From NCBI GenBank assembly GCA_016618085.1, contig JABLTG010000024.1:87716-151715 (forward strand): a DNA stretch of 64,000 nucleotides, read 5' to 3'. This document shows, piece by piece, positions 4,713 to 61,710 of the stretch. Each line of letters opens with the position of its first letter. Position 1 is the stretch's first letter. The stretch is from Neovahlkampfia damariscottae. Its lineage: Eukaryota; Heterolobosea; Selenaionea; Neovahlkampfiida; Neovahlkampfiidae. The position numbers and the translations under genes were made by a program. The notes under the pieces were generated by a model. It ran no database searches and was not told the origin of the DNA. It saw nothing but the letters and a program-made list of their open reading frames with translations.

Positions 4713-5216
4713 ATGAACTTTCAATTTGTGAATAAAAAACTAAATCAATTATTATTATTAACCAGTATATCACCTTTGATCACTGAAACTTTAAAAAACT
4801 TTCAAACTGATCCTCTGATATTGAATTTCATGGAACAACTAAAAACAAACAAACAACTTTTAAAAGTGACAGATTTAAATCCAAATTCACTTGAACTGAA
4901 AACTCACATTTCAAAAATATCAAGAAATTCGAATAAAGCCATTGCAGAAATCATTGTGTGCGATGATGAAGCATGTTCAAAAATTATATTTTCCGCAAAA
5001 AGACCTCACTATGTTTGGTTTTATGATGACATTGTTGTTGATTCAAATTTTTCAAATAGTAAATATTTTATTTCTAATCTCTAAATCACTAAATTAGTCA
5101 AATTGAATCATTATGATGATGAAGAACCTAAAATCAATTTTTTTGAAAAAATATTTAAAATACTGTCACCAATATCGATTGGTATATTGATGTTGAGATT
5201 CAAAAAATTTAAATAA
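4713..5216 (+). CDS. Small protein with C-terminal membrane segment
   Basis: Two exons, 4713-5058 and 5098-5216, with a 39-nt intron (GTAAAT...TTAG). Without splicing the frame stops after 123 residues; with splicing it gives 154 residues ending in a hydrophobic segment (ILSPISIGILML) followed by a basic tail. That looks like a single C-terminal membrane anchor. Residues 1-30 are also rather hydrophobic. I do not recognise the family. The stop codon lies inside the 3' end of the convergent receptor gene: the two coding regions share 8 bp (5209-5216). A TGATTGG box is 29-35 bp before the ATG. Confidence 0.65.
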
Positions 5217-7033
5217 ACTTCTCTTCTCTATAAAGTAAATCTTTTTCAATTTTGTAATTGTATTCAAATCTTTTATAATGGTTTTCTTCTTTTAATCTTG
5301 ATAATGTATCTAATAAATTTAATTGAAGTGCTATTTGAATTTCGTCAAATAAGGAAGAATCTATTTCCGAAAATTCAATTTTTTGAAAAACTTTATATCG
5401 AAGATCTTCATCAACATTTACTTCAAAATGAGAATTTACAGCTAAATATCTATCAAAAATAATATTTGCATATTCCAATTTCTGTTTTTTTGATGAAATT
5501 TTTTTGAATTTCAATAAATCTTCATAAATGAGAATATTCTCAAGGGACCATTCTTTTCTTGAGAAATTGATAAACATTTCTTTTAATTCTGGAATACTCA
5601 TAACCCATTCAATTTCATCTTCTGATATTGCACTTCTATTTCTTGAACAAAATAGTTTTGAAATTTTTTTCAAAACTGTTATGGTCAAAATGAAGAGTAT
5701 TTGAATCCAATAGAGCCAATACAATAAAACAGAATTCATATAAAAGTAAACTTCAGAGTATTCATAATAAAAATAAAAAATATTCAAACAGTAAAGAGGG
5801 ATAAAAAAATTAACAAATAATAACTCAGACCTAAATAAAAAAGGATCTTTTCTGATGAAGAAATCTAATAATTGACAACGTAACCATGTTTTAATATTTG
5901 CAATAATATCATAAAATTGAAGTAAAAAAATTGCTCCACCAATAGTAAAGTTTGAGGCGGTAAAAATCAACGAATTAGAAGTTAGTACCCTTTCAGTGCA
6001 TTTCCAGTTATCATTTGATGAAACCAAAACATAAATAATAATCATTATAAAAAAATAAAAAGTAATAAAAAATAATGAAGTTGAGGTTGAAGTAAAAAAA
6101 TCAAGTAATTTAAATATTTTTGAAACTTTGATTTCTTCATCTTTTCCTTGTTGTCTTTCATTGTAATAATGTTGTTTTTGTTTGTTCAAATTTACAATAA
6201 TTAGATATCTAAAAAAAGTCAATGGAATCAAAATATAAGAAGATTGTAATGCGCTGTAATTGATCATCATGATAAAACAAATAAAATAATTTCTCCACTC
6301 TAAACTTAAAAATTCTGGAAAATGAGTCATGTAATATATGAAATGAGCAATTATAGCAAATATTGGTAAAGTTCCTCTACTTTTTAATGGTTGTTCATTT
6401 TGTAATAAAAGGTATAAGATGAGCACAAAAAAATTAAAAACTAAAGAAGCAATATACACATATAAATTCATCGTTTCTGCAATACCAGGTCTTACCACAG
6501 CACAACTAGGAAATACTAAAAGTTAAAAAAAGCAAAAAAAAATTACCATTTTCTGATAGTTTTATCTTCAACGTCCTTTGATAATTATGTCGTGAAATGT
6601 TCTGTGGAGAAGTTGGAGTTATCAAATTATTAAAAGCAAAGAAGATATATTCATTATCAGGCATATTCCAACCATCCACTTCAAACTGAAAAAAAATAAA
6701 TTTTTGTGGTAAAAGTGAATCTAATTGTTTGAAATTTTTAAAATCAACTTCTGAAGGTTCTCTGACTTGGTAATGGTCATCAATTTGATTCATTATTAAT
6801 TTAGATTCATTTTGGTAGACTAGAAACATATGAGATTCTTTTGTTGAATTTTCTGAACTCCAACCAATTGCTGTCCAACCTGTAAATTTTGTTGGTGCTG
6901 CTATTTGAAAAACAAACACTTGTTCTTTTGTTATATTCCAGTGAAATAAAAAATCATCTCTGACAAGACAATTTGGTGGTACTGATAAACTTGTGGTCAG
7001 TGCAAACAGCAGTACCGCAACAATTCGAAACAT
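5209..7033 (-). CDS. DOMON-7TM-RGS receptor
   Basis: Two exons, 7033-6547 and 6515-5209, joined across a 31-nt intron; 597 residues. In order: signal peptide (MFRIVAVLLFALTT), a DOMON-type beta domain (residues about 22-160, with the GWTAIGWS core) that in other proteins binds heme or sugar, seven hydrophobic segments (about 180-450), then an RGS domain (about 470-585) of the kind that accelerates GTP hydrolysis by G-alpha. Receptor-RGS fusions are known, as in plant AtRGS1; the DOMON ectodomain is the unusual part. The start at 7033 is chosen over an upstream frame extension because the signal peptide begins there and a TGATTGG box sits 18-24 bp before it. The ligand is unknown. Confidence 0.82.
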
Positions 7034-7243: not shown

Positions 7244-9268
7244 ATGCTAAAACTGATCCAAACCCAAAATTTTTTTATAACAAAATTGTTTACTTCAGTA
7301 AAAAAATACAACACAGATACCAAAAAACAATTGTCTTTTCCATATGGAATTCAGAATTTTTCACAGCTCACTGAACCTGGAATTTTTGTAGTGGACAAAA
7401 CAATGTTTATTCCCAAATTAGAATCAACCAATTCTGATCTTTTTGTGTTGGTCAGACCAAGAAGATTTGGAAAAACAATATTCATTTCAATGCTTGATTA
7501 TTACTACAATATTTTACATAAAGATAAGTTTCAAGATATTTTTGGTCGTCTTGAAATTGGATCAAATCCAACGGATGAAAAAAATTCATATTTTGTCCTT
7601 TCATTATCGTTTGCAGGTATTGATTCAAAGAACTCGGAATCATTTACAAATTCTATAAATGATAGTATAAATAGTAGAATAGACCATTTCAAGGCTCAAT
7701 ATGCTCAATTCTTCCAAAAAAAAGAAACTGATGAAATTAGAATAAACACCAATGATGCTGTATGTTCAATGAGATCACTTGCAAATTTTATCAAAAGAAG
7801 ATCAAAAAAGGTAAAAATAATCCTTTTCTAATTCCACTAGTTGTTTATTATTATTGATAATCATGATGCTTTGGTTGACGTAGTTTTGAATGATTTATCC
7901 AGTCAATCCTACGGTGACAGAATCTATGCATCACCCCAACCTTTGTCATTATCATTAAAATACCAAAGACAATCCGGTACTATCGACAGAATATTTTCAA
8001 TAATCAAAGAAATGAGTGGACAAGGATTTCAAAAAGTTTTTATTACTGGAACAGTACCAATTGGTTTGGAAAAATATAATATATCATTTCACCCAGATTT
8101 TGAAAATATGATTGGAATAACTGAAAATGATATCAAAAAAGTGTTGGAATTGATAATTCCTGATGATAAATCATTGCAAGAAAAATCAATGATAATTTTG
8201 AAGGAAAATTTTGGAGGATTTAAATTCAATGACACACAAAAAAATGAAACATATAACATAGCTTTGGTGAATTATTTTTTTAACAATTTACAAGAGAAGA
8301 AGAAAATACCTGCCGAATTACTTGATCCAAATGTTGATCCATCAATTTTGAATGTTCTCAGGAAATTCCCAATACCAAGAGATTTTATGGATGAATTGTT
8401 TTTAAATGATTATGGAATTTATATACATGATGTTCCTGATGCAATGATTTCTATAAAAAATATGTTCCAATCATTGCAAACTGATTCATGGTATATTCTA
8501 TCATTCATGCATTATTTTGGAAATTTGACTATTGGAGAGTTGGAAAATGTGTCTACAAATAATAATCCACCCCAAACTCATTACAAAATCCCAAACAAAA
8601 TGATGAAACAACAGTTACAAGCAGCCATCAAGGAATCATTTCGTTTCAACAAATACGATGTGCAGGATGATATTAAAATAGCAGTTTCCGAATTATTTCA
8701 TGAGAAAGAAATTCGAAGACTTTGTGCTGTAATTACAGAGGATATGTTGAATCCAATGAAGGGAATAGAAATAGACCATCCACGTGAAAATTTGACAAAG
8801 ATTGTTTGTTCTTTGGCTTTTAGTTTACTCGATTATCCTTCGATGACCGAAATTGAAGTGAAGAAATTTGATCCAGAAAATTTCACGAGATTTGGTAATT
8901 TTTTATATAACCAAAAAGTTCATTTGGAATTTAAAAACATCGCTCCAAATAACATAATTCTACAAGATGGAAGATGCTATCAAAGGGGAGATGATATTGA
9001 GTCAGGAATTAAAATCAACAAAGAAATATATACTATGGACCCACTTGATGTATTGGAATTGAATTTGAAATTCAATATTGCCAAAGATTCAGATGAGAAT
9101 TATCTATCAAAAGATTTGGAAAATATTTCTGATGTTTTGGAAAATTTGAAAATTCAAACCAGAGAAAATAAGAAATGGATCGAAAACAAATTTAAACATT
9201 CCATTGATTCTTATTATATCCTCAGAATTGGATTGTACACTCTTAAGTTTGACAAAATAAATCTTTAA
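7244..9268 (+). CDS. AAA-ATPase_like / DUF1703-type protein
   Basis: Two exons, 7244-7810 and 7841-9268, with a 30-nt intron; 664 residues. After an N-terminal stretch that could be an organelle presequence, residues about 35-130 match the AAA-ATPase_like family (PF09820): FPYGIQNF, then VDKT, then the Walker A variant RPRRFGKT. The Walker B region reads FIIIDNHDALVD where the family usually has D-E-Y-D, so catalytic competence is uncertain. The middle and C-terminal parts are long and divergent, without the clear C-terminal PD-(D/E)XK nuclease signature of relatives. The family is abundant in bacteria and patchy in eukaryotes. A shorter relative lies at 42.2-43.0 kb. Function is unknown. Confidence 0.75.
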
Positions 9269-9434: not shown

Positions 9435-9516
9435 CTCGAGTGCCGGGAATTGAACCCGGGTCGCAAGAGTTCTGCATTGTTGACAGTCTTGAATTCTACC
9501 ACTATACCACACCCGA
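9435..9516 (-). tRNA. tRNA-Asp(GUC) with 11-nt intron
   Basis: Read on the minus strand, the acceptor stem UCGGGUG pairs with CACUCGA (one G-U pair) and the discriminator is G73, as expected for Asp. The T arm CCGGG-TTCAATT-CCCGG is perfect and supplies the B box. The anticodon stem CAAGA/TCTTG encloses CT-GTC-A and then, one base 3' of the anticodon, an 11-nt insert (ACAATGCAGAA) before C38. Removing the insert gives a normal seven-base loop with anticodon GUC. The intron sits at the canonical 37/38 position. The gene lies between two protein genes. A TSEN15-type splicing-endonuclease subunit is encoded at 26.4 kb. Confidence 0.95.
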
Positions 9517-19371: not shown

Positions 19372-22009
19372 ATGTCCAAAAAACAAAGCATTCAACAAGA
19401 CTTAAAAAAAAGACTTGAACTTCACAATACTTCCAGAATGACGCATAACTCCATTCTAAAAGAAACTCCTTCAACAGATTCACGTCCTAGCATTCCGTTA
19501 ACAGGAATTGGTGGTTCAGTTTTTTCTTTCAAAAAGCATTTAAAACTATACCAAGATAACAACTCATTTTCATTACCAAACTCACCAAGAGAAGAAGATT
19601 TGCAAGTTATAGGAGAAGACAGAAGAGACTCCAAATCCTTACCACAAAGTCCAACAGAAGAAGAAAATATTTTGCAACCACAAAGAAGTTTTGAAGAAAA
19701 CTTAATAGATGTGAACAACATCACTCAAAAAAACCACACCCAAATTTTGAATTTAGAAATTTTTTCACAAGATGAAAAATCCATACAAGCCTTTAAACAG
19801 TTTACCATTGAAAGTTTAGTAGCGGAACAATTTGAATACTATGAAAGATATCAAAGATATATGAATGAAAAAAATGAAGAAAGAAAAAAACAAATGGAAG
19901 ATGTTCTTTTTGAAAAATTTATCAATCCAAAAAGTGGAAGTAGTGTATTATTTTCACAAAAATCGACACAAAGAATATTAAAATATTATGAAAAAAGAAA
20001 TCCAATGGCACTTCAAATTTGTTATGTTAACGCATATCAACAATTAGAACGTTGTTATGAAAATTACAAAAAGAAAGGAAGTTTTCTATACAAAAAAAAA
20101 GTTGGAGTGCTTCCAACAAATTTTGATGAATTAGTAGAATCTAAGAAAGGTTTTAAACTCTTTTCAAATTTTGTTTCAGCAAATTTTGGAACGAATTTCA
20201 TTCAATGTTTCACAGACTTGATGGAACATAAAGATAGTAAAAAAGAAGCAGCTGACCATATTATTCAATTATACTGTAAAAAAGAAGCTGTTAAAAGTTG
20301 TATATATAACCCAGAAGTTCGAACAAAAATTGTAAACGAAAAAGGAAAAATTCAAGATGGTTGGTATGACACTTTGTACAATCATTTATACAAAATTCTA
20401 TCTCATGAATACTGTCCAAGATTTATTAACTCAAATATTTGGAGAGATTACATTACAGTCAATTTTATCAAAGAAGAAACTTTAAAATTTAATGATTTGT
20501 ATACTATAAAATCAGTTGATCGAAGAAGGTCTTTTTTTTCTGAAAAATATGAAATTCTTTCTGTTGCAAATTTATTGACATCTGATATTTTCAAAGCAAA
20601 GAGAATTATGTCAACAAAATCAACTATCGAAGTTCAATCAATCAAAGTAATTTTAGTTTTTCATTTTTCTCATTAATTTATCATTAGTTATTGGATAGTC
20701 AACTTAAACATGATAATGTCATTCAATTGATTGAATTATTCAAAGAAGATGCTGAAGTCTATGATACACAAACTCTATCAATTGTTACAACTCATTTTGG
20801 TGATTCATTGGATGAATACATTGAAAAGTTAAAAAATCCATTGACCGATTTGGAGTTGGTTGATTTCATGAGACAAATTTTATTAGCATTGCAATGTTTC
20901 CACAAACAAAAGAGATATTTTGAAATTGGCCAATTGAAAGAAACAAATATTTATCTATCTTCATTAATGAACACATTGTACATTGATCCTGGATTCTTTT
21001 ATAATAATGAAACCGATGAAGAAGATGACTGGTTATATGGATACTTAAAATCACCTGAAAAAGTTTCATCACCAAAGAGTGACATTTACTCTGCTGGTTT
21101 TATTTTTTTCAGATTGGCTTCTGGGCATTCGTCACTTGAAATTCAAGAAATTTGTGAAAAGAAAGAAAAGAAAAAAGGATGGTTAAAAAACTTTGCAGAG
21201 TATATTTCTAGTCCTGCATCCACTTCTGAATTCGATTCTGTTGATGAATTTGAAAATGGGTTTTCAACAGACCCTCGTGGCATTGATTCATTCTCAATAC
21301 AAAAAGGTGTAACTCCAGATTATATTATCAATATGAAAGAAGAATTTTTATTCCTCAAAGTAAAGAATTTCAAATTTTTTTTAATGAAAAATTATCTAAT
21401 TAGGATAGATATGATGTTAGAATTTTAAATGTAATGATTCAAATGATAGATGAGAATCCATATAGAAGACCAAAAATTGATGATATTTTGAAAGAGTTAA
21501 CATTTATTTATAGAGAAATCAGAAGAGGAACTGTCAGAAAAATGAGTAACAAATTTGGCTCCTTGACAGAATTCCAAAAGATTGTACTTTCTGATGACCT
21601 TTATCGTCAATATTTTAAAGAGTTCTTAAGAACTGAATTTGCATCAGAAACCCTTTTATTTTTTGAAGATGTGAAACAATTTCAAAATTTAACAACTGAT
21701 CAACAGAGATTATTAAAAGCGAACGAAATTTGTCAAAGCTACTTGAAGATAACATCAAATTTAGAAATAAATGTCAGTGGATCATTGAAAAAGAATGTTT
21801 CTCAAGATTTAAAAGAAGCATTTGAAACTGGAAAAATTGGTATGGATATTTTTGATGACATGGCAAAACATGTTTCAGATACAATTTTATTGGACTCTTT
21901 CAACCGATTTGAGCAATCATCCATCAGAAATGAATTGAAAGAAAAATTGACCTTCGATAGAAAATCAAAAATGTCTTCAAAATCAACTGTAAAAATAGTG
22001 TTAAAATAA
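19372..22009 (+). CDS. RGS-RGS-pseudokinase-RGS protein A
   Basis: Three exons, 19372-20646, 20688-21359 and 21404-22009 (introns 41 and 44 nt); 850 residues. In order: a Ser/Pro-rich tail (1-120), a degenerate RGS (131-225), a second RGS (251-360), a kinase-like domain (about 372-690) and a clear RGS (about 745-830, YRQYFKEFLRTEF...ETLLFFEDV). The kinase-like part keeps the beta-3 Lys (AKRI), the alpha-C Glu region, a DPG version of DFG, the SPE and SDIYSAGF blocks and NPYRRP. It has no Gly-rich loop, and the HRD Asp position is Gln (GQLKETNIYL), so catalysis is unlikely. Paralogues lie directly downstream and at 50.6 kb. It resembles G-protein-coupled receptor kinases only in combining RGS and kinase folds. 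Confidence 0.82.
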
Positions 22010-22074
22010 AATTGTTGGAAGAATTTCTAAAACAATTTTATTGGTGGAATTTTTCATTCAATCAATTTCTATTC

Positions 22075-24275
22075 ATGGAAGAGCAATTTGTTTTAACACC
22101 TCTAACTGAAATTGAAGAATTAAAAATAGATGAAGAATATAAATCCGCTTTTTGCAAACATGCACAAAAGAAATTTGTTTCTGAACAATTTCTTTTTTTT
22201 GAAATGTATCAAAATTATTTAGAAAAATTTGAAATTGATGAAGAAAAAGAAAGTTTAGAAGAAGAATTATATGAAAAATTTATAAACCAAAATTCAAAAA
22301 CAGCGTTGACTTTAAGTACAAAAATTTTAAAAAAAGTGAAAAATTTGTATAAAGAGAAAGCATCAAAACCATTTCAAATAGTTTATCAAGAAGTAAGATT
22401 TTAGTTTACATAATAATAGGTGAATACTAATTTGTCACCAATTTACAGAGAATTCCTGAAAAACAATAATGAAATGTTGATAAAGAAAGAATCAATTTTT
22501 AGACATCCTTCACACATACCAAAGAATTTTGAAGAAATCATTGATCACGAAGAATTATATCAAATCTTTTGTAATTACGTTTGTGATCATTATGGCAGGA
22601 ACTACATGGTTTGTTTTGAAGATTTAAGAGAATATCAAAGAAATCCAATAGAGAAAGCAAAAAATAGAATATACGAAAATTATTTTGTTTATTCATCACG
22701 TTTTTGTTGCATTTTTAATCCTCAAATCAGATCAACAATTTTTATCAACAAAAATACAACCACTGAAAATTGGGAAGAAAATTTGGAGAATTTTCTTAAA
22801 AATATTTTGCAAAACGAGTTTTTTGTAAGATTTATACATTCTCCTCTTTGGAAAGATTTTATTAGTTCAAACTTTCAAAAAGAAAAAGATACAACTTTTG
22901 ATGATTTATACACTGTTAAAAAAGTTGTGAAAAAAACCACATCTTTTTCAGAGGAAGTTGAACATTTGATTGTTGTGAATAAGTTGACAACTGAACCTTT
23001 CAATGCTAAAAGAATTACATCAACCAAAACTCTTTCCAAAATAGAGACTTTTAATGTATGAAAAAAAAAAAACTGATCTATTAAGTCAATGAATCAAAGA
23101 GTTCATGATAATGTGATTCAATTTGTCGAATTATTCAAAGAAGATTTGAAGGAATATAATAAAAATTGTGTCACAATCATCACAACTGAAATCAATGAAC
23201 GACTAGATACCTTTTTGAATAATAAAGGAAATATTATCAAAGAATATGTAAGAAATCAAAAAAACTCATTTTTCAGGAAATTATCGGATACTTTATGCAA
23301 ATTCTATCTGCGTTGGCTCATTTACATGATCAAAAACGTTATTTTGATTTTGGAACTTTGTGTGAAAATAATATTTACATGTCTGCTTTGTATAGTACAA
23401 TATTTATTGATCCTGGGTATTACTTTGATGAAGAGAATGATGAATACCCAGATTACTATGATGCACCTGAAAATGTCACTTCTGCCAAAGGTGATATCTA
23501 CAGTGCAGGTTTTATTTTTTTCAGATTTCTTACCAGATTATCTCCCGAAGAAATTGAAACGATTTATAAAAAAAAACCAAATTTGAATTTAGTTGGTAAA
23601 ATAAAGAGTTTTAGAAGATCACCTTTTAATGGTGTTGAACCAACGTATTACAATAACATCAAAGAAACTCTTTCGAAAGTCAAAGTAAGTTCATTGAATT
23701 GTAATTCATAAAATCAGTTATTTGATTCAAAAATTAAAGATTTAGTATTGCAAATGATTCATCCAGATCACAAAAAAAGACCTTCAGCATTAGAAGCTCA
23801 TAAAACATTGAAAGCAATTCAAAAAGGAAAAAACTATAAAATGATTAAAACAAAATCAATGGTTTATGAAAATTTCGAAGAAGAACATCTACTCACAAAA
23901 AATATATATCGTAGATTTTTCAAAGAATTTGTGAGAACCGAATTTTCAACTGAAACAGTTTTGTTCTTTGAAGATGTTGAATTATTTCAAAATTTCTCAA
24001 CAGATCAAGAGAGATTATTGAAAACCAAAGAAATTTTTCAATCTTATTTGAGTTCATCATCACCTTTAGAAATCAATGTAAGTGGAAGATTAAAAAAAAA
24101 ATTAGAAGAAGAGATTCAAGAAGCCAATGAAACTGGAGATATAACATTTGACATTTTTGATGAAATTCAAAAACATGTTGTAGATACAATATTTTTAGAT
24201 GTAATGATGAGATTTAAAGACTCCGAAATAAAAAAAGAATTGGATCACTATATGGAAAAATATGAAAAAAAATGA
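22075..24275 (+). CDS. RGS-RGS-pseudokinase-RGS protein B
   Basis: Tandem paralogue of A, starting 65 bp after its stop. Five exons: 22075-22392, 22420-23055, 23086-23247, 23277-23684, 23718-24275; introns of 27-33 nt; 693 residues. It lacks the Ser/Pro-rich N-terminus and starts directly in the first RGS (about 16-106). The second RGS is at about 140-245, the kinase-like domain about 260-530 and the final RGS about 560-670. The catalytic-loop Asp is again lost (FGTLCENNIYM) while IDPG, APE, GDIYSAGF and the RP block remain. Two of its introns correspond in position to those of A; the others are extra. It ends 12 bp from the convergent RPC4 gene. Confidence 0.82.
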
Positions 24276-28713: not shown

Positions 28714-30258
28714 ATGGAAGAACTGATATCAGCTCCTTCTGTTAGTCAAGTGCATTTATCACCCAAAATGACTAAAAAAGAATTAAAAACTTACAAAACT
28801 ACCAAAGGATACACTGTAGAAGAGCTCAACCAAAAAAAACAAACAGTTTTATGTAAGAACAACTTTTGTTTTCATTTTTTTTCAAAGGTTTTTTAAAACC
28901 TCTAACTTATCCAACAAACCGTTCAGCTGTCAATGAACTTTTAGTTTTGTCACTTGAGCTGTCAAGTCTTCAACAAATAAGTTTGGTTTTCATTTTTAGT
29001 GAAAGGGCTAATACAGTCTTGATGATACTACAGAAATACAATTTAGCTGAGAAGATAAACTTTATTGCTGACCCTAATTTAAAAATGCATGATGCCTTCC
29101 AAGTGACAAAAAAATTCAATAAATTCACTGAAAGTAATGAAAGGAATACCCATGTCTATTATTTAAAATCAAATGAAATTAAGAATCACATACAGTTTGG
29201 AAGAGAACTACCGTAAGTTTTTTTTTATTTAAAAATTTCCAAAGAATTGATGAAATAAAAAGTTTCATAACTTTAGACACCAGTACAAAAAAAAGAAGAA
29301 AAAGAACAACAAAAGAAGTGGATTTTATTCAAAATTCTCATTATCCATACCTGAATTTAGCACCAAAGTCACCTTCTGCTTTTACAGCTATCAAAAGTTT
29401 ATTTTGCTCTCCAAGAAGAAGTTCATCAACAAATTCATCTTTTGGAGCTTTGTCAAGTGAAATGTTTGATATGGATGATATCAGTGACAGTTCAACAAAT
29501 ACATCAAGAAACTCAATGTCCTTTATAAAAAAACCTTTCAAAACTCATTTGAGTGATTCAAAACAATCAAGCGAACGAAGTCCATTCAATTGGAAACGGA
29601 AAAATTCAGGTTCTGTTGATTTGGGTATCACACGACCAAATTCACAAAAAAGTTTGACATCACCAAGAGACTTTCAAAATAATCGAGCAAATTCTATTGT
29701 AGATTCACTTTTTAGTTCTCCAAAATCACCTTTAAAATGGGGTTCTTCAGATGAAAGAAGAAATTCAAATTTTTTCAAGCTTTCAAAAACATCTTTTAAA
29801 ACAAAAGAAACTTCAGAAAGTACCACAAAACTAGTTACACTTTTAGATGTCCTTGAAAATGATAAATTTAGAATCTATTTCAAACAATTTGCTGAAAGTG
29901 AATATTCCAAAGAAAATGTGCTCTTTTGGGAAGATGCACAAGAATTTAAAAAAATTGAAGACCTTGCAGAAAGAATGGGTGAAGCACATCGAATTTTCAA
30001 AAGTTATTTAACAATAGATTCAGAATATGAAATTAACGTTTCTTCAAAATTAGGTATGTTTCTCTTCTTTTTTAAATTTTTTTTTCAAAAGAAAGTTCTG
30101 TGAAAGAAAATTTATTTTTAAATTTGTTGAATGATGAATGTCCAAATGACCTTTTTGATTCAATTATATTTGAATTAGAAATGACAAATTTGAATGATAC
30201 ATTTTCAAGATTCAAGTTCACTACTTTGTATCATGAAAATGTAAAAGATCAATTGTAA
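28714..30258 (+). CDS. Thioredoxin-like-RGS fusion protein, copy 1
   Basis: Four exons: 28714-28852, 28888-29212, 29245-30053, 30092-30258 (introns 35, 32, 38 nt); 479 residues. Residues about 40-150 fold-match the peroxiredoxin-like AhpC-TSA_2 group (VLCFLKPLTYP, LVFIFSE, INFIADPNLK), but the CPxxC active-site cysteines are replaced (YPTNRS), so it is probably redox-dead. A long Ser/Pro-rich, phosphorylatable linker (about 180-350) precedes a C-terminal RGS domain (about 355-470: FRIYFKQFAESEYSKENVLFWED). The tandem copy downstream has the same exon structure. G-alpha GAP activity is likely from the RGS; the role of the N-terminal fold is unknown. Confidence 0.78.
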
Positions 30259-30352
30259 ATAATGTTGTAAATATTTGTATATTATCCATTTTTCTTATTT
30301 TTGAAATGACATTTCTTAATTTGATATACAACCAATCATATTTCTTTATTTC

Positions 30353-32044
30353 ATGGAGGAGTTGATTTTGAACAGTCAAGCAATAACAAATTTAAAAACC
30401 ATAGATAAAAGTTGGTTGATGAATATGGAAACTATACATCATGAAAATTTAGAAGAAATTAATAGAAAGACTTTTACTTTATTATGTAATTTATTTTTTT
30501 ATTCATTTTTTGAAGGTTTCATGAAACCATTACTTTTTCCAACAAGAATATCAGCTATAAATGAATTACAAAAACTTGTTTTAGAACTTGGAAATTTAGA
30601 ACGAATTAAATTAATCTTTGTTTTCAGTGAACGAACATTCAATTTGTATCAGTTACTTGTAAAGTGTAATTTAGAAAATAAAATAACATATATATGCGAT
30701 TCAAAATTAAAATATTTTGATAAATTTCAAGTACCAAATTTATACAATAATTGCTGTACAAGCAATCAACGAAATACTCATATATTTTTTTTAAAATCAA
30801 ATTCGCTCATTAAAACAATAGAATATGGTAGAATTATACCGTAAGAATAGTTTTACTTAAATTTTTAATAGTATGGATGAGATTCGGAGTTTTTTACCTC
30901 TACCAAAAAAATCAAAAAAAATTAACCAACGAAATGAGATTGTTTTTATTGAAAAAACTACAGCTCTTTTGGCCACAAAAAAGAACAAAAAACATCATAT
31001 TCGAAGAAAAAGTTTGTATGAAACTTTGACTTCTTTCAAGTCAAAACCGAAAGAAATTGCAACAACAGAGAAAATTTCATCTTTTGGGCCAAAATCACCA
31101 TCAGTATCACAAGAAAACTCACCAACTATAGAAACGATTGATTTCTTTTCACCAAGATCTCAAGATTCTCATGGTGATGATATTTCAGTTGGAAGTGAGA
31201 ATTCAGCAAAATCATCATCATTGTTTGGAAGCTTTAAGAATTTATTTCATGGTTGCAGCTTCGATGATGAAGATGATCCTGTTGAGTTGAGAGCTGATGA
31301 TACTGCACCTGATTTTAAAGTCAGGAAAAGAAGAAAATCATTGGATAATGCAATGTCCAAAAAAGATTCTGATTTGTCTTTGTCATTCGCTGGATTGACT
31401 TTTAAAGCAAAATTCAAGAGAAAGGGTTCAATGTCACATGGTTTGGATGATAAATCACCGAGATCTCCAAGACTTATTTCACCAAGATTGGCCGGTACAC
31501 CTGTTGGTCGAAAAGGATCAGCACATGCTCCTAACATCAATTTAAACTTCAGCCCTTCAAGTGACTCACCTAAGAAATCTCCTGCGACTAAAAAAGATTT
31601 AAGGACAACCAAAACAGTATCTCTTTCAATGTTAGATATTTTACAAGACGAACAAAAAAGAAAGGTATTCAAAAAATTTTCCAAATCAGAATACTCATCT
31701 GAAAATATTGAATTTTGGGAAAGAGTCCAAGAATTTAAAAAAATTAAGGATAAAAATGAGAGATTGGATGAAGCAGAAATGATTTATTATCACTTTTTGA
31801 CACCTGAATCGGATGATGAAATTAATGTTTCTTCAAAACTATGTATTTTGTAAAAATTATATTAAATTACTTTTCAGTGAAAAGAGTGAAAATTGAATTG
31901 TTTGAAGCTTTGGAAACCAATGAATGTCCTATTGAGATTTTTGATGCAATTGTATTTGAATTGGAATTTGGAGCTCTATCTGATACCTTAACCAGATTTA
32001 AATTTACATCTGATTATTTCACCATAAACAAAGTCAAGAAATAA
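30353..32044 (+). CDS. Thioredoxin-like-RGS fusion protein, copy 2
   Basis: Tandem paralogue, 95 bp after copy 1. Four exons: 30353-30485, 30516-30840, 30872-31842, 31878-32044 (introns 30, 31, 35 nt); 531 residues. Intron positions and phases match copy 1 exactly. The N-terminal fold (LLCFMKPLLFP, LIFVFSE, ITYICDSKLK) again lacks the active-site pair (FPTRIS). The linker is longer and full of Ser-Pro sites, with several basic patches. RGS at about 415-525 (VFKKFSKSEYSSENIEFWE). The last exon, completing the RGS domain, requires the 35-nt intron. A CCAATCA box lies 15-21 bp before the ATG. Confidence 0.78.
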
Positions 32045-34227: not shown

Positions 34228-34689
34228 TCAGGTGTACCAAGGAAAATTTAACGGATTATTTTCATCAATATTATTTTCACTTGAAAAAGTAAAGTTAAAC
34301 ATAATATTATATGCAGAAATTTCTCTGATGAATTTGAAATATTGTTTTGATTTCCGTTCAATTTCTTTATCATTTTGTAATTCCTCAGATGCATATTTAA
34401 GTGAATAACCATCAAGTTTCACTGCTTCCAAAATGAATTGTTTATCCTCTTTTAATTCTTTGGATGCACATTCAAGTGAATAACCATCCTGTTTAACTGC
34501 TTCCAAAACTACTTCTTTATTGTTTCTTAATTCCTTGGATGCATATTTAAGAACTTCACCATCCTCTTTTACTGCTTCCGAAACTATTTCTTTATCATTT
34601 TTTACTTCCTCTGATGCATGTTTAAAATAATAACCACCATATTGTATTACTTTTTCGATAACTTCTTGTTTTTCTTCTTTTGAAACCAT
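34228..34689 (-). CDS. DUF4116 repeat protein, copy 1
   Basis: Single exon, 153 residues, built from about four 25-residue helical repeats with core EVVLEAVKQDGYSL then (E/K)YASKEL (DUF4116), followed by a shared C-terminal segment (KSKQYFKFIREISAYN, NFTFSSENN). Function of the family is unknown. The last 115 bp of the gene are nearly identical to the end of the gene at 59.8 kb, so the two are recent duplicates. It lies between two BTB genes. Confidence 0.75.
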   Translation of the reverse strand: MVSKEEKQEVIEKVIQYGGYYFKHASEEVKNDKEIVSEAVKEDGEVLKYASKELRNNKEVVLEAVKQDGYSLECASKELKEDKQFILEAVKLDGYSLKYASEELQNDKEIERKSKQYFKFIREISAYNIMFNFTFSSENNIDENNPLNFPWYT

Positions 34690-42207: not shown

Positions 42208-43029
42208 TCAATATCTTAATATTTCAAAGAATTTATATTTTATTTGTAAATTCAATCTTTTCGCTTGTTTACCTTTGAATGCTAATCCTAATTTTATTAC
42301 ACTTTTTATTTGTTCATACTGACGAATTTCAGTTGAATACAAATTATCATCAATTTGTTTGATTGCATTTTTTGATAAATTTTCTGATTCATCATATCTT
42401 CCAAGTCCACTTTTTCTATAGGAATGAATAATGTGAGTATCATTTAAACTTGCAATAAGTCCAAGGAAAAATAAATGATAACTCTTTTCTTTCTCTTGAT
42501 TTCCAAAATCATGATAACTTGATGTAAAAATTAAATAATCTGTTAATTCTTTTGTAAATTTTTCAATATCTTCATCTAATAAACTTTGAATGAAAGAATG
42601 ATATTTTTGTTCACCCATTTCATCATTGAACCATTCTTTAATCATCTTTTTAAAAAATGCATTCACCTCTTTATTTGGAATGATGAGATATTTTCCTTGA
42701 TGTTCTTTCAAATATTTTCCATTTTCAATTTTTGAAATTTTACAATCTTCAAATATTCCTTTTGTTTCTTTGTTTAGAACAGAAGAAGAAAAGAAATTTT
42801 GAATCATGGACATATTAAGTGTCTTTCCCCATCTTCTTGGATGTGTAATTATAACTACTTTTGATAAATCATCTTTTAATTCTTTAATCATCAAAGTTTT
42901 GTCAACATAAAGCATATCTTTGTCTTCAACAATTTTTCTGAAATCATCAACACCAATTGGTGGTATTTTTTTGGAATAAAAATTAAATTTTTTGAAATGC
43001 AACAACTTGTTGAACTTATTCAAAAACAT
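42208..43029 (-). CDS. AAA-ATPase_like/DUF1703 protein with internal deletions
   Basis: Single exon, 273 residues, where relatives have about 500-570. The N-terminal domain begins as expected (DDFRKIVEDKDMLYVDKT, Walker A variant HPRRWGKT), but soon after EDCKISK it jumps to IPNKEVNAFFKKMI, which belongs to the end of the ATPase module. The nuclease module then begins (SYHLFFLGL) and reads SGLGRYD, after which relatives have an (I/V)xEFK catalytic strand; here it is missing and the sequence resumes in the C-terminal helix. Two in-frame deletions thus remove Walker B and the nuclease centre. The frame is open, so it may be expressed but should be inactive. A TGATTGG box is 13-19 bp before the ATG. 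Confidence 0.7.
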   Translation of the reverse strand: MFLNKFNKLLHFKKFNFYSKKIPPIGVDDFRKIVEDKDMLYVDKTLMIKELKDDLSKVVIITHPRRWGKTLNMSMIQNFFSSSVLNKETKGIFEDCKISKIENGKYLKEHQGKYLIIPNKEVNAFFKKMIKEWFNDEMGEQKYHSFIQSLLDEDIEKFTKELTDYLIFTSSYHDFGNQEKEKSYHLFFLGLIASLNDTHIIHSYRKSGLGRYDESENLSKNAIKQIDDNLYSTEIRQYEQIKSVIKLGLAFKGKQAKRLNLQIKYKFFEILRY

Positions 43030-46463: not shown

Positions 46464-48149
46464 ATGAAACATTCAACTTCTGTTTCAACTATTATACTAT
46501 TGTTTATCACATTCACAGAAACTCTTGGACAACAAAACATCTATCAAGATAAGAGAACAAAATTTCAAACAACTTGGGACATTTTCTTGGTTATTGTTTC
46601 ATACTTTATAGCTCTAGTTGGTAGCTTCACAACTCTTCAGTTAATACATCAACTCAAATTTTCTGTTTCAAAAATGTCAAGATTATTTTGGATTTTTCTT
46701 GCATCATTTGTTTTAGGAGGTGTAGCAATTTGGTCCATGCATTTTATAGGAATGGCTTCTGTTAAAGTATTGTATGCTACAAAAATACTCAAAATGTCTT
46801 ACGACTTTAAACTCACACTCTTCAGTTTATTCATTGGAATTTTTTCTTGTTTTGTTGGTTTGTTTATTGCTGATGTACATCACTTTTCAAGCACCATAAG
46901 AAATTTTTTATTACCTTTCAGAGATGAAAATTATCAAAAAAATGATGAAAACTCCGAAAATGAAAACAACATCCAACAAAAAATTAAAAATTGGATTTTA
47001 AAGTTGTTAGATTCTCACAATGATCCTGACAAACCACATATATTTCAAATTTTACTTGGTGGTACTTTAACAGCAACTGGTGTTGTTACGATGCATTATT
47101 CTGGAATGGAGGCTTTAGTTATACAAGCTAAATTCAAATACTCACCATTTTTATTCATTTTGTCTTTAGTTATTGCATTAATTGCTGCTGTTGCCGCTCT
47201 CACAATTGTATTTGCTTCTAAAACTATTTTAGAGCATTTCATAGCTGCTGTGGTTATGGGTGTAGCTGTAAGTGGAATGCATTACACTGGAATGGCTTCT
47301 GTTGTTTATTATGAATATATAGATTCAGTAGCTGTTATAGGTTTACGAATGGAACATTTAATTCTTGCTGTGATTGTGATGAGTCTTGTTACTTGCATGT
47401 TGATGGTTTTTGTTGTTTCGATTCAAAATTCATCAAGAAATGAAAGACTTGATCGCTTAGTTGAATCAAAAACTTATCAATTAACAGAAGAAAGGAATAG
47501 ATCTGAAGAACTTTTATTGAACATCTTGCCTCCTCGTATTGCAATAAAGATGAAACAAGGACAAACAGATATTTATGAAGAATATTTAAATGCAACTATT
47601 CTATTCTCTGATATTGTTGGATTTACAAAAATGTCAAACACAATGACTTCAAAACAACTTGTTGTTATTTTAAATGATCTAGTTTCAAAATTCGATGATT
47701 TGGTTATATCTCATCAGATTGAAAAAATCAAAACGATTGGAGATGCATATATGGTTGTTGGTGGAATTCCTGAAGATCCATTTGGATTTCAAGCTAATCA
47801 AGTAATGAAATTTGCAATTGAAATGATCAATACTGTTGGATTGTTCAATAAATCAACAAATTTGAAATACGACATAAAAATTAGAGTTGGTATGAATACT
47901 GGAAGAGTTGTTGGTGGTGTAATTGGAACAGTTAAGTTTTCTTTCGATGTTTGGGGTGAAGCTGTAAATTATGCAAGTAGAATGGAGAGCAGTGGAATTG
48001 AAAATCAAATTCAAGTTTCTGCCTCAACAGCAAAGTTAATTAGAAACAAATTTCAATTAAAATTAAGAGAAAATGTTGAAATTAAATCACTTGGAAAAGT
48101 GAATACATATTTGTATAATCCAGAAGATTTCTTAAAAAAAAATGTGTAA
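46464..48149 (+). CDS. MHYT-domain adenylyl cyclase
   Basis: Single exon, 561 residues. After a hydrophobic leader come seven membrane segments carrying three MHYT motifs: MHFIGM (92), MHYSGM (210) and MHYTGM (272). MHYT is a bacterial integral-membrane sensor proposed to bind copper and sense O2, CO or NO. A short helical linker (ERNRSEELLLNILPP, 340-358) joins it to a class III cyclase domain (about 375-535). Metal-binding Asp383 and Asp427 are present. The purine-specifying residues are Lys423 (KIKTIGDAYM) and Asp495 (FDVWG), the adenylyl rather than guanylyl pattern; Asn502 and Arg506 are in place. It should work as a homodimer making cAMP in response to a gas or redox ligand; that last part is inference. 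Confidence 0.88.
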   Translation: MKHSTSVSTIILLFITFTETLGQQNIYQDKRTKFQTTWDIFLVIVSYFIALVGSFTTLQLIHQLKFSVSKMSRLFWIFLASFVLGGVAIWSMHFIGMASVKVLYATKILKMSYDFKLTLFSLFIGIFSCFVGLFIADVHHFSSTIRNFLLPFRDENYQKNDENSENENNIQQKIKNWILKLLDSHNDPDKPHIFQILLGGTLTATGVVTMHYSGMEALVIQAKFKYSPFLFILSLVIALIAAVAALTIVFASKTILEHFIAAVVMGVAVSGMHYTGMASVVYYEYIDSVAVIGLRMEHLILAVIVMSLVTCMLMVFVVSIQNSSRNERLDRLVESKTYQLTEERNRSEELLLNILPPRIAIKMKQGQTDIYEEYLNATILFSDIVGFTKMSNTMTSKQLVVILNDLVSKFDDLVISHQIEKIKTIGDAYMVVGGIPEDPFGFQANQVMKFAIEMINTVGLFNKSTNLKYDIKIRVGMNTGRVVGGVIGTVKFSFDVWGEAVNYASRMESSGIENQIQVSASTAKLIRNKFQLKLRENVEIKSLGKVNTYLYNPEDFLKKNV

Positions 48150-50634: not shown

Positions 50635-53600
50635 ATGCAATTGTTCAAAACAAAATCAACCAAAGATAAAGAAGATGTGAAAAAGCTAATAACTGAATTA
50701 AAAACATCAATTGATAACAAAATTGAGTTTTCTGATTGTTTATTCCAACAAACAAAAAAAAATGCTTGGAAAAAATTTTATTTTTTTTTAACTTCAGAAC
50801 CAAACTTGTACATAATAGAAGAAACCGTAAACCAATTTTTTTTTAAAAATATTCTAAGAAAACATCATATGAACTTGTCAAACTTGACCAAGAAAATATG
50901 GAATTTGAACAAATTTTTTTAGAAGTTTCTCAGATTCCTTATCACATCAATTTAGGAAAAAATATGATTTTAGGCTTTGAGAGTCATGTTACATTTCATA
51001 ATTTTGTGAAATGTTTGAAAAAATTTAACTTGTCAGAAATAAAACCTGAATTTCATAAATTCACGACACATTTGGATAAATTACGTACTGAAGCTTTTTT
51101 TTTTAAATATTTTTATAGCTGTCAAAGATTGGAAAATTCATGATTCAATTCGTTGGCTTGGTACAATGTACTTCAAAAACGAACCTCTTTCATTGAAATA
51201 TGAAAACATGATTAAAGGAATGAATGGACTTGAGCTGATAAAATTGACAAAAGAAGATTTTTTAAAGCATTATAACTCAAATGATTCCGCTATTATTTTA
51301 CACAATGAAATTCAAAAGTTGAAAGAAAATTCAAGTAACAACAATAATATTTCTAATTTTTCACACAGTTTTTTCAACTAATAAAATGAGATTTAGAATG
51401 AAAATAGATGCTTTGAATCATAAAAAAGATGAAGAAGTTGCTAAATACATGGATGAACATGAGTATTTTCTGTTTTCATTATGTGATGAAGATGAATTGT
51501 TGAAGACATATTTAAACGTGCACATCAACGAAAAAATTCATGAAAATTCTGAAAAATTTGTAAAATCACCAGAAGGGGTTGAAATTCGTTTAATACTATC
51601 TGAATTCACTCACAATAATCAAATGTTAAGCATACCTGAATCTTTCAGTGGTACCATCAATTCAATGCCGAAATTTGATTGGAGTGAAAAATTTGGACAT
51701 TTTAAATGTGCATTGTTAATAGGACCTTATTATTTAGAATTCACAGACAGCTCGATTTGTGTTCCAAAACGATTAAACTCCGATTTTGGAGAAATATTTC
51801 GACAAATTAAACCAATAAGAACTTTAAAAAAATTCAACTTGTCCTATGTCACAAAAAAGATTTCCAACATTATTGTCAAATGGAATACAAGATTTTTATA
51901 CAAAGCTGCAAATCCTGATCTAAAAAGTAAAGAATCAAATGGGTTTCATTTCATAAATGAATTATTGCATCAATTTGATGATGAATTTGATTTTGAATTT
52001 TTAGGTTCTCTAGTTTCATTGATGGATGAAATCCAGGTGTTCGGAGATTGTGGTGCTTCAATTTTACCAGGCAAACATCAAGAAATTCTCCGAGAAAAAT
52101 TTAACTTTTCATCAATACAAGAATGCAAATCACATGCTGAACTTGATAATGAACTTCTCAATATTTTGGAAGAAGATAAAATGTTCAAAATTGAATTTCT
52201 TCAAGACTACATCTGTTTTCAATTGATAGATCTTGCATTTTGGTTTAGATCAATGATACATCAAAAAGAAGAGTATGTTCAGTGTTATGATGGTAATGAA
52301 CCTTGTTGTCCTTGCTTCAGTCGAGGTTTTTTTCTGAATATATTTCAAAATTATTTGTTAAATGTTCCTGAAGAAAAAATGCCAACATCGGAAATGTTTA
52401 TGAGGATAAAAAAAGAGAGAGAAGTCATTGTTTCAGAATCACCAAAGAAAGAAACGAAATTTCATTATTTAATGAAAAATGTGGCTCAAAAGTTTCAAGC
52501 ATCCCCAAAATCTCCACAAACAGAAAAATCAGAAGATGATTTTTATTATTCTTCTGATGAAGAAAAATCAAAAAAACTTTCTTTGTCTTACAGTGTCTCA
52601 AGGAAAAGAGCACTAAAAAAATCACCTTCAAAAGATGCAATGTTGCATCAAATGAAAGGAAGAAAACAACGATCCAGGAGAAAATCATCACACATCAGTG
52701 TTTCAATGATATTCACAGAAAATGGAAAACCATCAACACCAACATCACGAAGAACTCCATCAAAACAATATATTGTCAGTATCAATTCAAGTAATGAGAA
52801 TAGTCCAATGAAAAATCATCACAATCAATCATTCATCAAATTATATCCTATAATTAAAACAAAACCTGAAATTAAAAAGTTGGAAATTTTTGATGATCCT
52901 ATTGAAGTAGAAATTTTTAAACAATTTTCAATTGAACACTCAGCATATGAAGAATTTCTTTATTATGAAATTTATCAAAAATGGCATTTTGAGGAAAGTG
53001 AAATAGAAAGAAATATCCTTTTACATCATTTATTTGATCGTTTCATTCATGAAAAAGGATCAGATTCAATTACATTTACCTTTAGAAAATTGAAAAATTT
53101 AAAGAGAATTTTCTCAGATGAACCCAAGAAAGCAATTGAAATTGTTTACAATCAAGTAATTTCTTTTCATCAAATTAACATTTTTAATGAAGATTTTTGA
53201 TCGATTGAATGCATTACACTCCCAATATGTTGAATCTGAATATTGGAGATCTGAAGAATTAAAAACTGATTGTCCAGATACATTCAATGAAATTATTGAC
53301 AACCAAGAAGCATTTAAATTATTTTCCAATTTTGTCTCAAATACAGTTTTTGGAAGTCAATATATTGATTGTTGGAATGATTTAAAAGATTATGAAAAAA
53401 ATAACTCAAAAAGAAAAATTTTGAAAATCTTGGGGTATGTCAAAGAAAATTCATCACATAATTTCCTTCATAACCCTGAGATTCGGAAAAGAATTGTAAT
53501 AAATGACAAATTACAACCTGGAGGTTTTGAAGCCTTCTTAGATTATGTTCATGATATTTTAGCCTATGAATATTATCCGAGATTCAAATACACCAAAATT

Positions 53601-55075
53601 TGGAAGAATTATCATAATGCAAAAGCACCTAAAAATTTAGACTTGAAATTTAAAGACATGTATACAGTGATTCAAATTGACAAAGAAATTTCAAGTTTTG
53701 ATTGTAAAATTCAACATATGATTGTGCAACATAAAGTTACTGCAGAAATGTTCAAAGCAAAAAAAATAATTTCATTGGATAAAAAATTCATCAAAAAGAA
53801 ATCAATTGAAGTAATAATTTTGTTATTTCTGACATTGTAATATAGTATTTAGATAATGTTCCACATCGAAATCTCATAAATGTTATTGATTCTTTCACAG
53901 AATCAGATACAAATGAGTACAACCTAATTCTCATAACTACATTAGTTGTTGATTCCTTAGCCAAAGATGTGCATCATAAAATTGATGTTGTCAAAGAATC
54001 AGTACGTAAATCATTGATTGACATTTCATCAAGTTAATTTTAAGATTCATGATTCAAATTCTAAGAGTGATGAATTTATTTCATCAAAATGGAAAATTTG
54101 GAAGATTGAATGAAGCTTCAGTGTATCTCTCTTCCTCATATATTACAGTTTATATTGATCCTGGGTTTTATATTGAAGATGATATTCAAAATCCTGACTA
54201 TTTAAGAGCTCCAGAAATTCATCAACAATCACCAAGACCAAATGAAAAATCTGATATTTATTGTGCTGGTTTTGTTTTGATTAAATTTTTGACGCAAAGA
54301 AACTCGAAAGAAATGCAACAAATTTTTGATCTGAAAATTTCATCTCCAAAGAGTTCTTCTTTGCTTAGTGCAATACCAAGAAAGATTTCATTAACACCAA
54401 AATATGAAAAACCTCATCCATATTTTAATAATTTTCAAAAAGAAATTGGAAAATTCAAAGTAAGTTCACTTTAAAAATTGAAATATATTTTTATAGGATT
54501 CTCTTTCAATTGACCCAAAAATTTTAGATTTGATGATGCACATGATTCAACCAGATCCAAAAAATCGTCCAACTGTTTCAGAGTTACTTAACTCTGTTCA
54601 TGGAATAAAAGAAAAAAAGAAAAATTCAAAACTTCAAAAACCAATCAAAAAAACTCGTTTTGATGGTTTGACTAAAAATCAAAAACAATTGATTCAAAAT
54701 GATACTTATCGTCAATATTTCAAAGAATACTTGAGAACTGAAATGTCTGTTGAATCTATTTTATTTTTTGAAGATGTTCAATTGTTCAATGAATTTAGAA
54801 CATGTCAAGAACGAATTATCAAAGCAAATGAAATTATTCAAGCTTATTTAACGGATGAATCGGAGTTGGAAGTTAATGTAAGTGGAAAATTAAGAAGAAC
54901 ATTAGAAATTCAAGTTGAAGATGCTGAGGAATCTGGAGAGCTTGGAACTGATATATGGGATGATATTGCTATTCACATCATTGAAACTACTTTATTGAAT
55001 TCATACCAACGTTTTGAAAACTCTCCAATGGCAAAATCGTTGATGAAAAAGATCAAATCAAAATCTAAGAAATAA
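50635..55075 (+). CDS. PH-SAM-RGS-RGS-pseudokinase-RGS protein C
   Basis: Eight exons: 50635-50826, 50859-51084, 51119-51334, 51369-53155, 53193-53810, 53846-54001, 54034-54459, 54497-55075; introns 32-37 nt, all phases close; 1,399 residues. Order: PH-like domain (about 45-125, WKKFYFFLTSEPNLYI), SAM domain (about 140-205, IRWLGTMYF...LTKEDFLKHY), a 400-residue region of unknown fold with GFHFINELLHQFDDEF, a Ser/Pro linker (about 590-700), RGS (about 715-805), RGS (about 835-945), pseudokinase (about 960-1240) and RGS (about 1268-1375). The catalytic loop is the most degraded of the three (GRLNEASVYL). The shared architecture shows common descent with A and B. Confidence 0.8.
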
Positions 55076-59807: not shown

Positions 59808-60875
59808 TTAGATACCCGGATTATTTTCATCAATATTATTTTCACTTGAAAAAGTAAAGTTAAACATAACATTATATGCAGAAATTTCTCTGATGAATTT
59901 GAAATATTGTTTTGATTTCCATTCAATTTCTTTGTCCTCTTTTAATTCTTTGGATGCATATTCAAATGAAGTGGCATTCTGTTTTACTGCCTCTAAAACT
60001 ATTTTTTTAACATTTTGTAATTCCTCTGATGCATATTCAAGTGAATAACCATCAAGTTTCACTGCTTTCAAAATGAATTGTTTATCCTTTTTTAATTCTT
60101 TGGATGCATATTGAAGTGAATAACCATCCTGTTTAACTGCTTCCAAAACTATTTCTTTATCATTTGTTAATCCTTTGACCACATATTGAAGTGAACAACC
60201 ATCCTGTTTAACTGCTTCCAAAACTATTTCTTTATCATATTGTAATTCCTCTGATGCCCATGCAATTGCAGAACCACGTTGTTTTACAGCTTCCAAAATG
60301 AATTGTTTATCCTTTTTTAATTCAGATGATGCATATTTTAGTGAAGTACCATCAAATTCCTGTTTTACTGCCTCCAAAACTACTTCTTTTTCATTTTGTA
60401 ATTCCTTGGATGCATATTCAAGCAAATCACCATTTTGTTTTATTGCTTCCAAAACTACTTCTTTATCATTTTGTAATTCTTTGGACACATATTGAAACGA
60501 ACAATCGCCCAGTTTACGCCGTTTTAAGATTTCCAAAACAAATTTTCTATCATTTTTTAATTGCTGGGAAGCATATTGAAATGAAATATATGCTATTTTT
60601 ACTGCTTCCAAAACTACTTCTTTATCATTTTGTAATTCCTCGGATGCATATTTAAGCAAATCACCATTTTGTTTTATTGCTTCCAAAACTACTTCTTTAT
60701 CATTTTGTAATTCTTTGGATGCAAATTCAAATGAAGAACAATCCTGTTTAACTGCTTCCAAAACCACTTCTTTATCATTTTGTAACTTCTTGGGTAAATA
60801 TCGAAGTGAATAACCATCATGTTTTACTGTTCTCAAAGCCTGTTGTTTTCTGGCAGCTTCTTTTTTTGTAACCAT
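59808..60875 (-). CDS. DUF4116 repeat protein, copy 2
   Basis: Single exon, 355 residues: about 12 tandem 25-residue repeats of the form NDKEVVLEAVKQxGxxLxYASxELQ (DUF4116), then the family C-terminal segment (KQYFKFIREISAYN...). At DNA level the period is about 75 nt and individual repeats are closely alike, so unequal crossing-over is likely. A CCAATCA box at 60920-60926 lies 45-51 bp upstream. Family function unknown. Confidence 0.78.
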   Translation of the reverse strand: MVTKKEAARKQQALRTVKHDGYSLRYLPKKLQNDKEVVLEAVKQDCSSFEFASKELQNDKEVVLEAIKQNGDLLKYASEELQNDKEVVLEAVKIAYISFQYASQQLKNDRKFVLEILKRRKLGDCSFQYVSKELQNDKEVVLEAIKQNGDLLEYASKELQNEKEVVLEAVKQEFDGTSLKYASSELKKDKQFILEAVKQRGSAIAWASEELQYDKEIVLEAVKQDGCSLQYVVKGLTNDKEIVLEAVKQDGYSLQYASKELKKDKQFILKAVKLDGYSLEYASEELQNVKKIVLEAVKQNATSFEYASKELKEDKEIEWKSKQYFKFIREISAYNVMFNFTFSSENNIDENNPGI

Positions 60876-60959: not shown

Positions 60960-61710
60960 TTATTCTTTAACTTCACTGTGAACAATATCATCAATATTGT
61001 TTTCATTTGAATTGTAAAGTTAAACATAACGTCACATGCAGAAATTTCTCTGATGAATTTAAAATATTTTTTTGATTTCCATTCAATTTCTTTATCCTCT
61101 TTTAATTCTTCAGATGCAAATGCAAGTGCAACACAATGTTGATTTACTGCTTCCAATACTATATCTTTATCATTTTGTAATTCCTCCGATGCATATTCAA
61201 GTGAAAGACCGTTTTGTTTCACTGCTTTCAAAATGAATTGATCATCTTCTTTTATTTCTTCGGGTGCGTATTCAAGTGAATAAACATTTTGTTTAACTGC
61301 TTCCAAAACTACCTCTGTGTCATTTCTTAATTCCTCAGACGCAAATCGAAGAAAATAACCATTCTGTTTTACTGCTACTAAAACTACTTCTTTATCATTT
61401 TTTAATTCCTCTGATGCATATTCAAAAAAATCAACACTATATTTTACTGCTTCCAAAATGAATCGTTTATCCTCTTTTAATTCTTTGGATACATATTCAA
61501 ATGAATAACCATCCTGTTTTACTGCTTCCAAAACTATTTCTTCGTCGTTTATTAATTTATTGGATGCAAATTGAAGTGAATATCCATCCTATTTTACTGC
61601 TTTCAAAACGACTTCTTTGTCGTTTGTAATTCCTTGGAGACATATTTGAGTGAAGCACCATTTTGTGTGACTTTTTCCAAAGCAAGTTGTTTTTCTTCTT
61701 TTGAAACCAT
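60960..61710 (-). pseudogene. DUF4116 repeat gene, copy 3, broken
   Basis: Same structure as copy 2 with the same start (MVSKEEKQ as in copy 1). Three lesions, read on the minus strand: loss of one A (T run at about 61622-61626) in the first repeat, an in-frame TAG where other repeats have CAG (61589-61591), and a one-base loss near 61015 that shifts the last codons of the shared C-terminal segment. Between the lesions about eight intact repeats remain. Directly upstream of the live copy 2, with about 85 bp between them. Confidence 0.75.

Follow-up and report, generated by a model that had tools for sequence, protein, structure and literature searches.

A predicted RGS-RGS-pseudokinase-RGS domain order in three paralogous genes of Neovahlkampfia damariscottae

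In a stretch of 64,000 nucleotides (nt) of the Neovahlkampfia damariscottae genome (contig JABLTG010000024.1, in the following termed the window), we analyzed three genes, named A, B and C, for the domains they encode. By profile matches, each of them encodes two RGS domains, a kinase domain and a further RGS domain, and this order (RGS1-RGS2-kinase-RGS3, the numbers denoting positions within the protein) is the same in 3/3 genes. The kinase domain is, judged by its sequence, a pseudokinase without the usual catalytic base. The four-domain order is most likely older than the split of A, B and C. We consider it by a small measure probable that these genes represent a family of multi-RGS scaffolds with an RGS3 competent as GTPase-activating protein (GAP), two degenerate RGS domains and a pseudokinase that serves as a switch or dock.

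Gene models and domain order

The models of A, B and C were assembled manually, from open frames and introns with GT-AG ends. A dicodon Viterbi gene finder, trained on the long open reading frames of the same window and with introns limited to < 75 nt, predicted 38 genes in the window, which is gene-dense and AT-rich (GC content 25-31% in 2-kb steps). The first-pass annotation had described two tandem genes within 19372-24275 and a distant third one, all with the order RGS-RGS-kinase-RGS. A and B are located there, separated by 65 nt, C is found at a distance, and Pfam recovered the order in all three spliced models. The features are as follows (scores refer to the isolated pieces unless a stretch of the whole protein is given).

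19372-22009, + strand: gene A, open frame, 850 amino acids (aa), 3 exons (19372-20646, 20688-21359, 21404-22009)
19768-20052, + strand: RGS1 of A, degenerate; PF00615 22.5 bits, just below the cut-off of 23.9
20119-20448, + strand: RGS2 of A; PF00615 44.5 bits, profile 1-116 of 117, helices in the AlphaFold model
20500-21526, + strand: predicted pseudokinase domain of A, two introns inside; PF00069 46.4 bits, first strands from AlphaFold, residue table
21578-21925, + strand: RGS3 of A, canonical; best RGS stretch, residues 708-823, profile 4-113 of 117
22075-24275, + strand: gene B, hand model, 693 aa, 5 exons (22075-22392, 22420-23055, 23086-23247, 23277-23684, 23718-24275)
22114-22461, + strand: RGS1 of B, one intron inside; PF00615 25.9 bits
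22525-22860, + strand: RGS2 of B; PF00615 24.6 bits, profile 1-117
22909-23801, + strand: predicted pseudokinase domain of B; PF00069 54.2 bits, residue table
23883-24230, + strand: RGS3 of B; RGS stretch 564-679
50635-55075, + strand: gene C, up to 8 exons (50635-50826, 50859-51084, 51119-51334, 51369-53155, 53193-53810, 53846-54001, 54034-54459, 54497-55075)
51119-51334, + strand: SAM-like domain, tentatively part of gene C; SAM_PNT 27.6 bits as a piece (cut-off 24)
52883-53210, + strand: RGS1 of C, degenerate; PF00615 17.0 bits, below the cut-off
53283-53609, + strand: RGS2 of C; PF00615 35.4 bits
53661-54595, + strand: predicted pseudokinase domain of C; PF00069 48.5 bits (two stretches), residue table
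54683-55030, + strand: RGS3 of C; RGS stretch 1053-1168

Searches with the RGS (PF00615) and Pkinase (PF00069) profiles, proposed with the first-pass annotation, gave matches above the cut-offs in all three whole proteins. RGS was found in three stretches per protein with 110.8, 86.8 and 77.6 bits for A, B and C (cut-off 23.9), and Pkinase reached 41.9, 47.9 and 43.9 bits (cut-off 31.7), which bears out the suggested kinase homology. As pieces, the kinase and RGS2 exceed their cut-offs in 3/3 genes. RGS1 does so in only 1/3, and the earlier description of the N-terminal RGS domains as divergent is thus right for RGS1. RGS3, scored in the whole proteins and not as a piece, is the best RGS stretch in each of them. 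The Pkinase match begins only around alphaC (profile position 40-47 in A and B), so that the first kinase strands rely on an AlphaFold model; in C the best Pkinase stretch covers the end part of the profile (164-260 of 263). Among the six-frame open reading frames of at least 25 aa in the window, no further match to the pseudokinase profile was found below E 0.3.

AlphaFold was applied to residues 115-425 of A (RGS1, RGS2 and N-lobe) together with partial B and C rows, and gave a mean predicted local distance difference test score (pLDDT) of 74.0 and a predicted template modelling score of 0.41. The model shows two helix sets and then three strands with short turns (model residues 263-273, 277-286 and 292-301). 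This block has a pLDDT of 73-82 and looks like the start of a kinase N-lobe. In a Foldseek search with the model, complexes of RGS7 and RGS9 and the protein RGS2 rank first, and single RGS chains reach template modelling scores of 0.65-0.82 by target (best 50 of 815 matches). Chains of the G protein-coupled receptor kinases (GRKs) GRK1, GRK2 and GRK5 align over 169-178 columns (one over 231) at root-mean-square deviations of 12.3-14.9 Å within the same 50, and this perhaps reflects similar units in another arrangement. The identity of the C-lobe is based on sequence profiles, that of the first strands on this one model.

The frames of A, B and C are intact once ten GT-AG introns are removed, all of them 27-44 nt long and in phase 0 (10/10). 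Gene A contains two of these (41 and 44 nt), and the gene finder gave an identical model. Gene B was split in two by the gene finder and is one gene in the hand model. For gene C a shorter model (ATG at 51386, 5 exons, 1182 aa) was also given by the gene finder; the long model (ATG at 50635) assumes three short introns of 32-34 nt, its upstream exons being open but inferred, and one alternative acceptor in this region likewise keeps the frame open. In the alignment, A, B and C appear by eye to share intron positions around alphaC and ahead of the last kinase helices, and B and C to share two more.

Gene C probably has an additional N-terminal region, comprising a SAM-like domain and possibly a PH domain. 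In the longer gene model, SAM_PNT reaches 23.0 bits, which is below the cut-off. The PH domain is tentative: it was seen upstream of gene C at E 0.0049 with one hand-made splice, and with the later model it is absent at E up to 1. The N-terminal part encoded at 51386-52400 (+ strand, about 330 aa) has no Pfam match above cut-off; by eye it resembles a papain/NlpC-like fold without the Cys.

Residues, contact positions and descent of the domains

Kinase columns were set from HMMER alignments to Nek7 and to a p38 sequence. The HRD motif is replaced by IGQ, FGT and FGR in A, B and C, respectively. The first-pass annotation had reported the loss of the catalytic Asp and the Gly-rich loop with IDPG kept, and both losses are seen in 3/3 genes; however, not the Asp alone but all of HRD is gone, with Q, T and R at the catalytic position. 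Glycine is absent from beta1 through beta3 in A, B and C alike. DFG reads DPG throughout, its Asp being kept, and the APE Glu, the alphaF Asp and a late Arg are likewise present in 3/3. The catalytic-loop Lys is K, C and N and the Asn is N, N and S, and by eye no alphaC Glu is conserved in the alignment. K410 of A was taken as the candidate beta3 Lys because it is invariant (3/3) and sits in the third modelled strand. Of the nucleotide ligands, this candidate Lys and the DFG Asp are thus present, the Gly-rich loop is lost and the others are missing or varied. The IDPG, PE, DIY.AGF and RP blocks are invariant among A, B and C. Against sequences of the PDB, the kinase profile matches Nek7 best (E 1e-11), followed by CDKL3, a calcium-dependent kinase and p38 (best 60 of 252 matches).

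For the RGS domains, four G-alpha contact positions were read off the printed HMMER alignments: E87, N88, N128 and R167, in the RGS4 numbering of the RGS4-Gi structure. RGS3 keeps 3/4 of them (the counterparts of E87, N128 and R167), RGS2 two (N128 and R167) and RGS1 only that of E87. The RGS3 profile matches RGS12, RGS17 and RGS10 structures in the PDB, with RGS12 as the best of 34 matches (E 4e-10); the RGS2 profile matches RGS17 and the protein RGS2, best RGS17 at E 2.4e-7 (31 matches at E up to 1). By these residues each protein would have one probable GAP domain, RGS3, and two probable docking domains, RGS1 and RGS2.

A tree was calculated for the nine RGS domains of A, B and C and three single RGS domains of the window (genes g4, g19 and g20), as had been suggested earlier. 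The nine domains cluster by position, with ultrafast bootstrap and approximate likelihood ratio (SH-aLRT) supports of 92/91 for RGS1, 100/99 for RGS2 and 83/90 for RGS3. Therefore, the four-domain order most likely preceded the duplications that gave rise to the three genes. Amino acid identity between the paralogs is highest in RGS3 (43-55%), followed by the kinase (36-42%), RGS2 (29-34%) and RGS1 (24-30%). Second codon positions differ least in 12/12 domain comparisons, as expected of constrained coding sequence.

Proposed function and alternative explanations

In the scaffold that we propose, the most likely role of RGS3, the sole canonical copy, is to bind active G-alpha and to accelerate its GTP hydrolysis. 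RGS1 and RGS2, as degenerate copies, would probably serve as docking sites for G-alpha or other partners and have little GAP activity, if any, like the RGS-homology domains of GRK2 and axin. The pseudokinase is most likely a non-catalytic switch or docking platform which determines how far apart or how exposed the flanking RGS domains are, and it is possibly gated by a nucleotide or a bound partner. A more far-reaching version, which we put forward tentatively and think rather doubtful, is a new regulator family in which the pseudokinase forms a nucleotide- or partner-sensing hinge gating the GAP activity of the adjacent RGS domain. The two additional RGS domains would then gather several G-alpha subunits and allow receptor-independent timing of self-activating G proteins. 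Protists such as Naegleria possess numerous RGS proteins along with G-alpha subunits that activate themselves (PMC9283941), so that the tempo of signalling may be governed by RGS proteins.

Several observations weigh against the scaffold. The position of RGS4 N88 is T, T and S in RGS3 of A, B and C. RGS1 is weak: of the 14 matches of its profile an unrelated deacylase comes first at E 0.0093, followed by RGS18 at 0.073. The AlphaFold model of exon 2 of A, which holds most of the C-lobe, was calculated with five short rows and is uninformative at a pLDDT of 36.7. The beta3 Lys is insecure, as MAFFT put the p38 VAVKK over VANLL, VVNKL and VQHKV and not over FKAKR. In the tree, support for the RGS1 and RGS3 clades is only moderate, and the program issued a warning about long branches of RGS1 and RGS2 joining each other. 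The argument from constraint draws on just three sequences of one window. In addition, no G-alpha gene was found among ten further window genes scanned of the 38 predicted.

It could be argued that the kinase remains catalytically competent in some atypical way, a residue other than the lost Asp acting as base, and that its targets are receptors or G proteins, as for GRKs. Activity despite altered motifs is found in some kinases, and the DFG Asp and the candidate beta3 Lys are kept in 3/3 genes. However, none of the three HRD residues is left in its place, Q, T or R stands at the base position and beta1 to beta3 lack glycine in each gene, which makes activity highly improbable. The opposite view, a decaying relic without a role next to RGS domains that alone matter, could draw on the divergence of the kinase, whose catalytic-base, Lys and Asn positions differ between paralogs. 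It is difficult to reconcile with intact frames in three paralogs, 36-42% identity, the invariant IDPG, PE, DIY.AGF and RP blocks and second codon positions that change least, and we regard it as quite unlikely. A fusion of A and B into one transcript for a single eight-domain protein is unlikely too. The gap of just 65 nt and three enumerated GT-AG introns of 26, 86 and 95 nt would permit it, but B starts with an ATG of its own, some other predicted genes lie just 12 and 40 nt apart, the ten hand-modelled introns are 27-44 nt long and gene C encodes a single set. The longest intron of the gene finder (72 nt among 43) gives no argument against this fusion, its maximum having been set at 74 nt.

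Descent from a GRK, in which the kinase died and the RGS domains were duplicated, deserves separate mention. RGS2 leads straight into the kinase as in GRKs, the Foldseek alignments to GRK1, GRK2 and GRK5 are mostly longer than one RGS domain, though behind RGS7, RGS9 and the protein RGS2 (best 50 of 815), and the weak RGS1 profile lists GRK2 or GRK3 in 6/14 matches at E 0.58-0.78. Against this, the profile matches of RGS2 (1-116, 1-117 and 2-116 of 117) and RGS3 (from 3 or 4 to 113) are near-complete on both sides of the kinase and neither is split, in agreement with the difference from GRKs that had been claimed. There is no GRK among the 31 matches of the RGS2 profile. The PDB matches of the kinase profile are Nek, CDKL3, calcium-dependent kinase, PKR/Nek and MAPK structures, with no GRK or other AGC kinase among the best 60 of 252, and the kinase of A alone likewise gave none among the best 60 of 154. 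We consider this origin very unlikely. The identification of A, B and C as GRKs themselves was rejected: the kinase is not inserted into a single RGS domain and whole RGS domains lie on either side.

Neighbouring genes and relation to known systems

In total, six genes of the window (A, B, C, g4 and two genes at 29085-32044) encode 12 RGS domains, including two RGS1 domains below the piece cut-off. The gene at 5209-7033 (- strand) looks by eye like a multi-pass membrane protein with a C-terminal RGS domain (36.0 bits) and resembles seven-transmembrane (7TM)-RGS proteins; a DOMON match stays below the cut-off (24.5 vs 32.7 bits). Two adjoining genes at 29085-30258 and 30353-32044 (+ strand) each have one C-terminal RGS domain and are sisters in the tree (97/97). 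At 46464-48149 (+ strand), MHYT repeats (PF03707, 'bacterial signalling protein N terminal repeat', 111 bits) are fused to a cyclase catalytic domain (180 bits). DUF4116 repeats form nine stretches at 59808-60875 (- strand), and 34228-34689 and 60960-61710 (- strand) are DUF4116-like by eye only. An AAA-ATPase-like gene is located at 7244-9268 (+ strand; PF09820, 123 bits) and a second one, by appearance only, at 42208-43029 (- strand). A tRNA at 9435-9516 (- strand) was identified by Rfam (47.6 bits) but missed by ARAGORN under the bacterial code, and a small intron may be present in it.

In the open-access full-text literature, which omits most subscription papers, we found no description of a pseudokinase located between RGS domains. 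Scans of viral and prokaryotic contig collections with the profiles gave no relatives, a blank that says little for a eukaryotic family. The first-pass annotation had called the family apparently undescribed and named GRKs for comparison. The former agrees with the open-access literature, but GRKs are not the sole precedent.

The GRK kinase is catalytically active. GRK1-7 are similar to A, B and C in having an RGS-homology and a kinase domain in one chain, with RGS directly before the kinase; in contrast, A, B and C have whole RGS domains flanking the kinase, three RGS domains in total and no HRD. With a pseudokinase between RGS domains, the RGS and kinase folds would be combined in a way distinct from GRKs, whose origin is traced to an S6-kinase-like domain that was inserted into a loop of an RGS domain (PMC3307776). 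The Dictyostelium kinome paper describes two kinases with RGS domains, Rck1 and ARCK-1, in the section available (PMC1420674), and the fusion of RGS and kinase is therefore already known in protists. Like A, B and C they are RGS-bearing kinases of an amoeboid protist. They are classed as TKL kinases, and that section says nothing of three RGS domains or of an inactive kinase in them (PMC1420674). For Naegleria fowleri, 28 7TM-RGS proteins, 79 other RGS proteins, one RGS-RhoGEF and 80 cyclases are listed in the accessible part of the account (PMC9283941). N. fowleri is thus RGS-rich like the window with its six RGS genes and one cyclase; an RGS-kinase protein is not mentioned there, and the 79 could include the architecture of A, B and C (PMC9283941). 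Together with the low GC content and the short introns, the RGS and cyclase genes of the window may be reminiscent of Naegleria-like Heterolobosea.

The architecture is coherent, is kept in three paralogs and is a variant of known RGS and pseudokinase multidomain regulators, for which we infer the mechanism outlined above. HER3 and the JH2 domain of JAK are regulatory pseudokinases. Like A, B and C, they are multidomain regulators with a kinase fold that lacks normal catalysis, but they are not known to be linked to RGS domains. A, B and C would provide a test case for whether a dead kinase can regulate a GAP.

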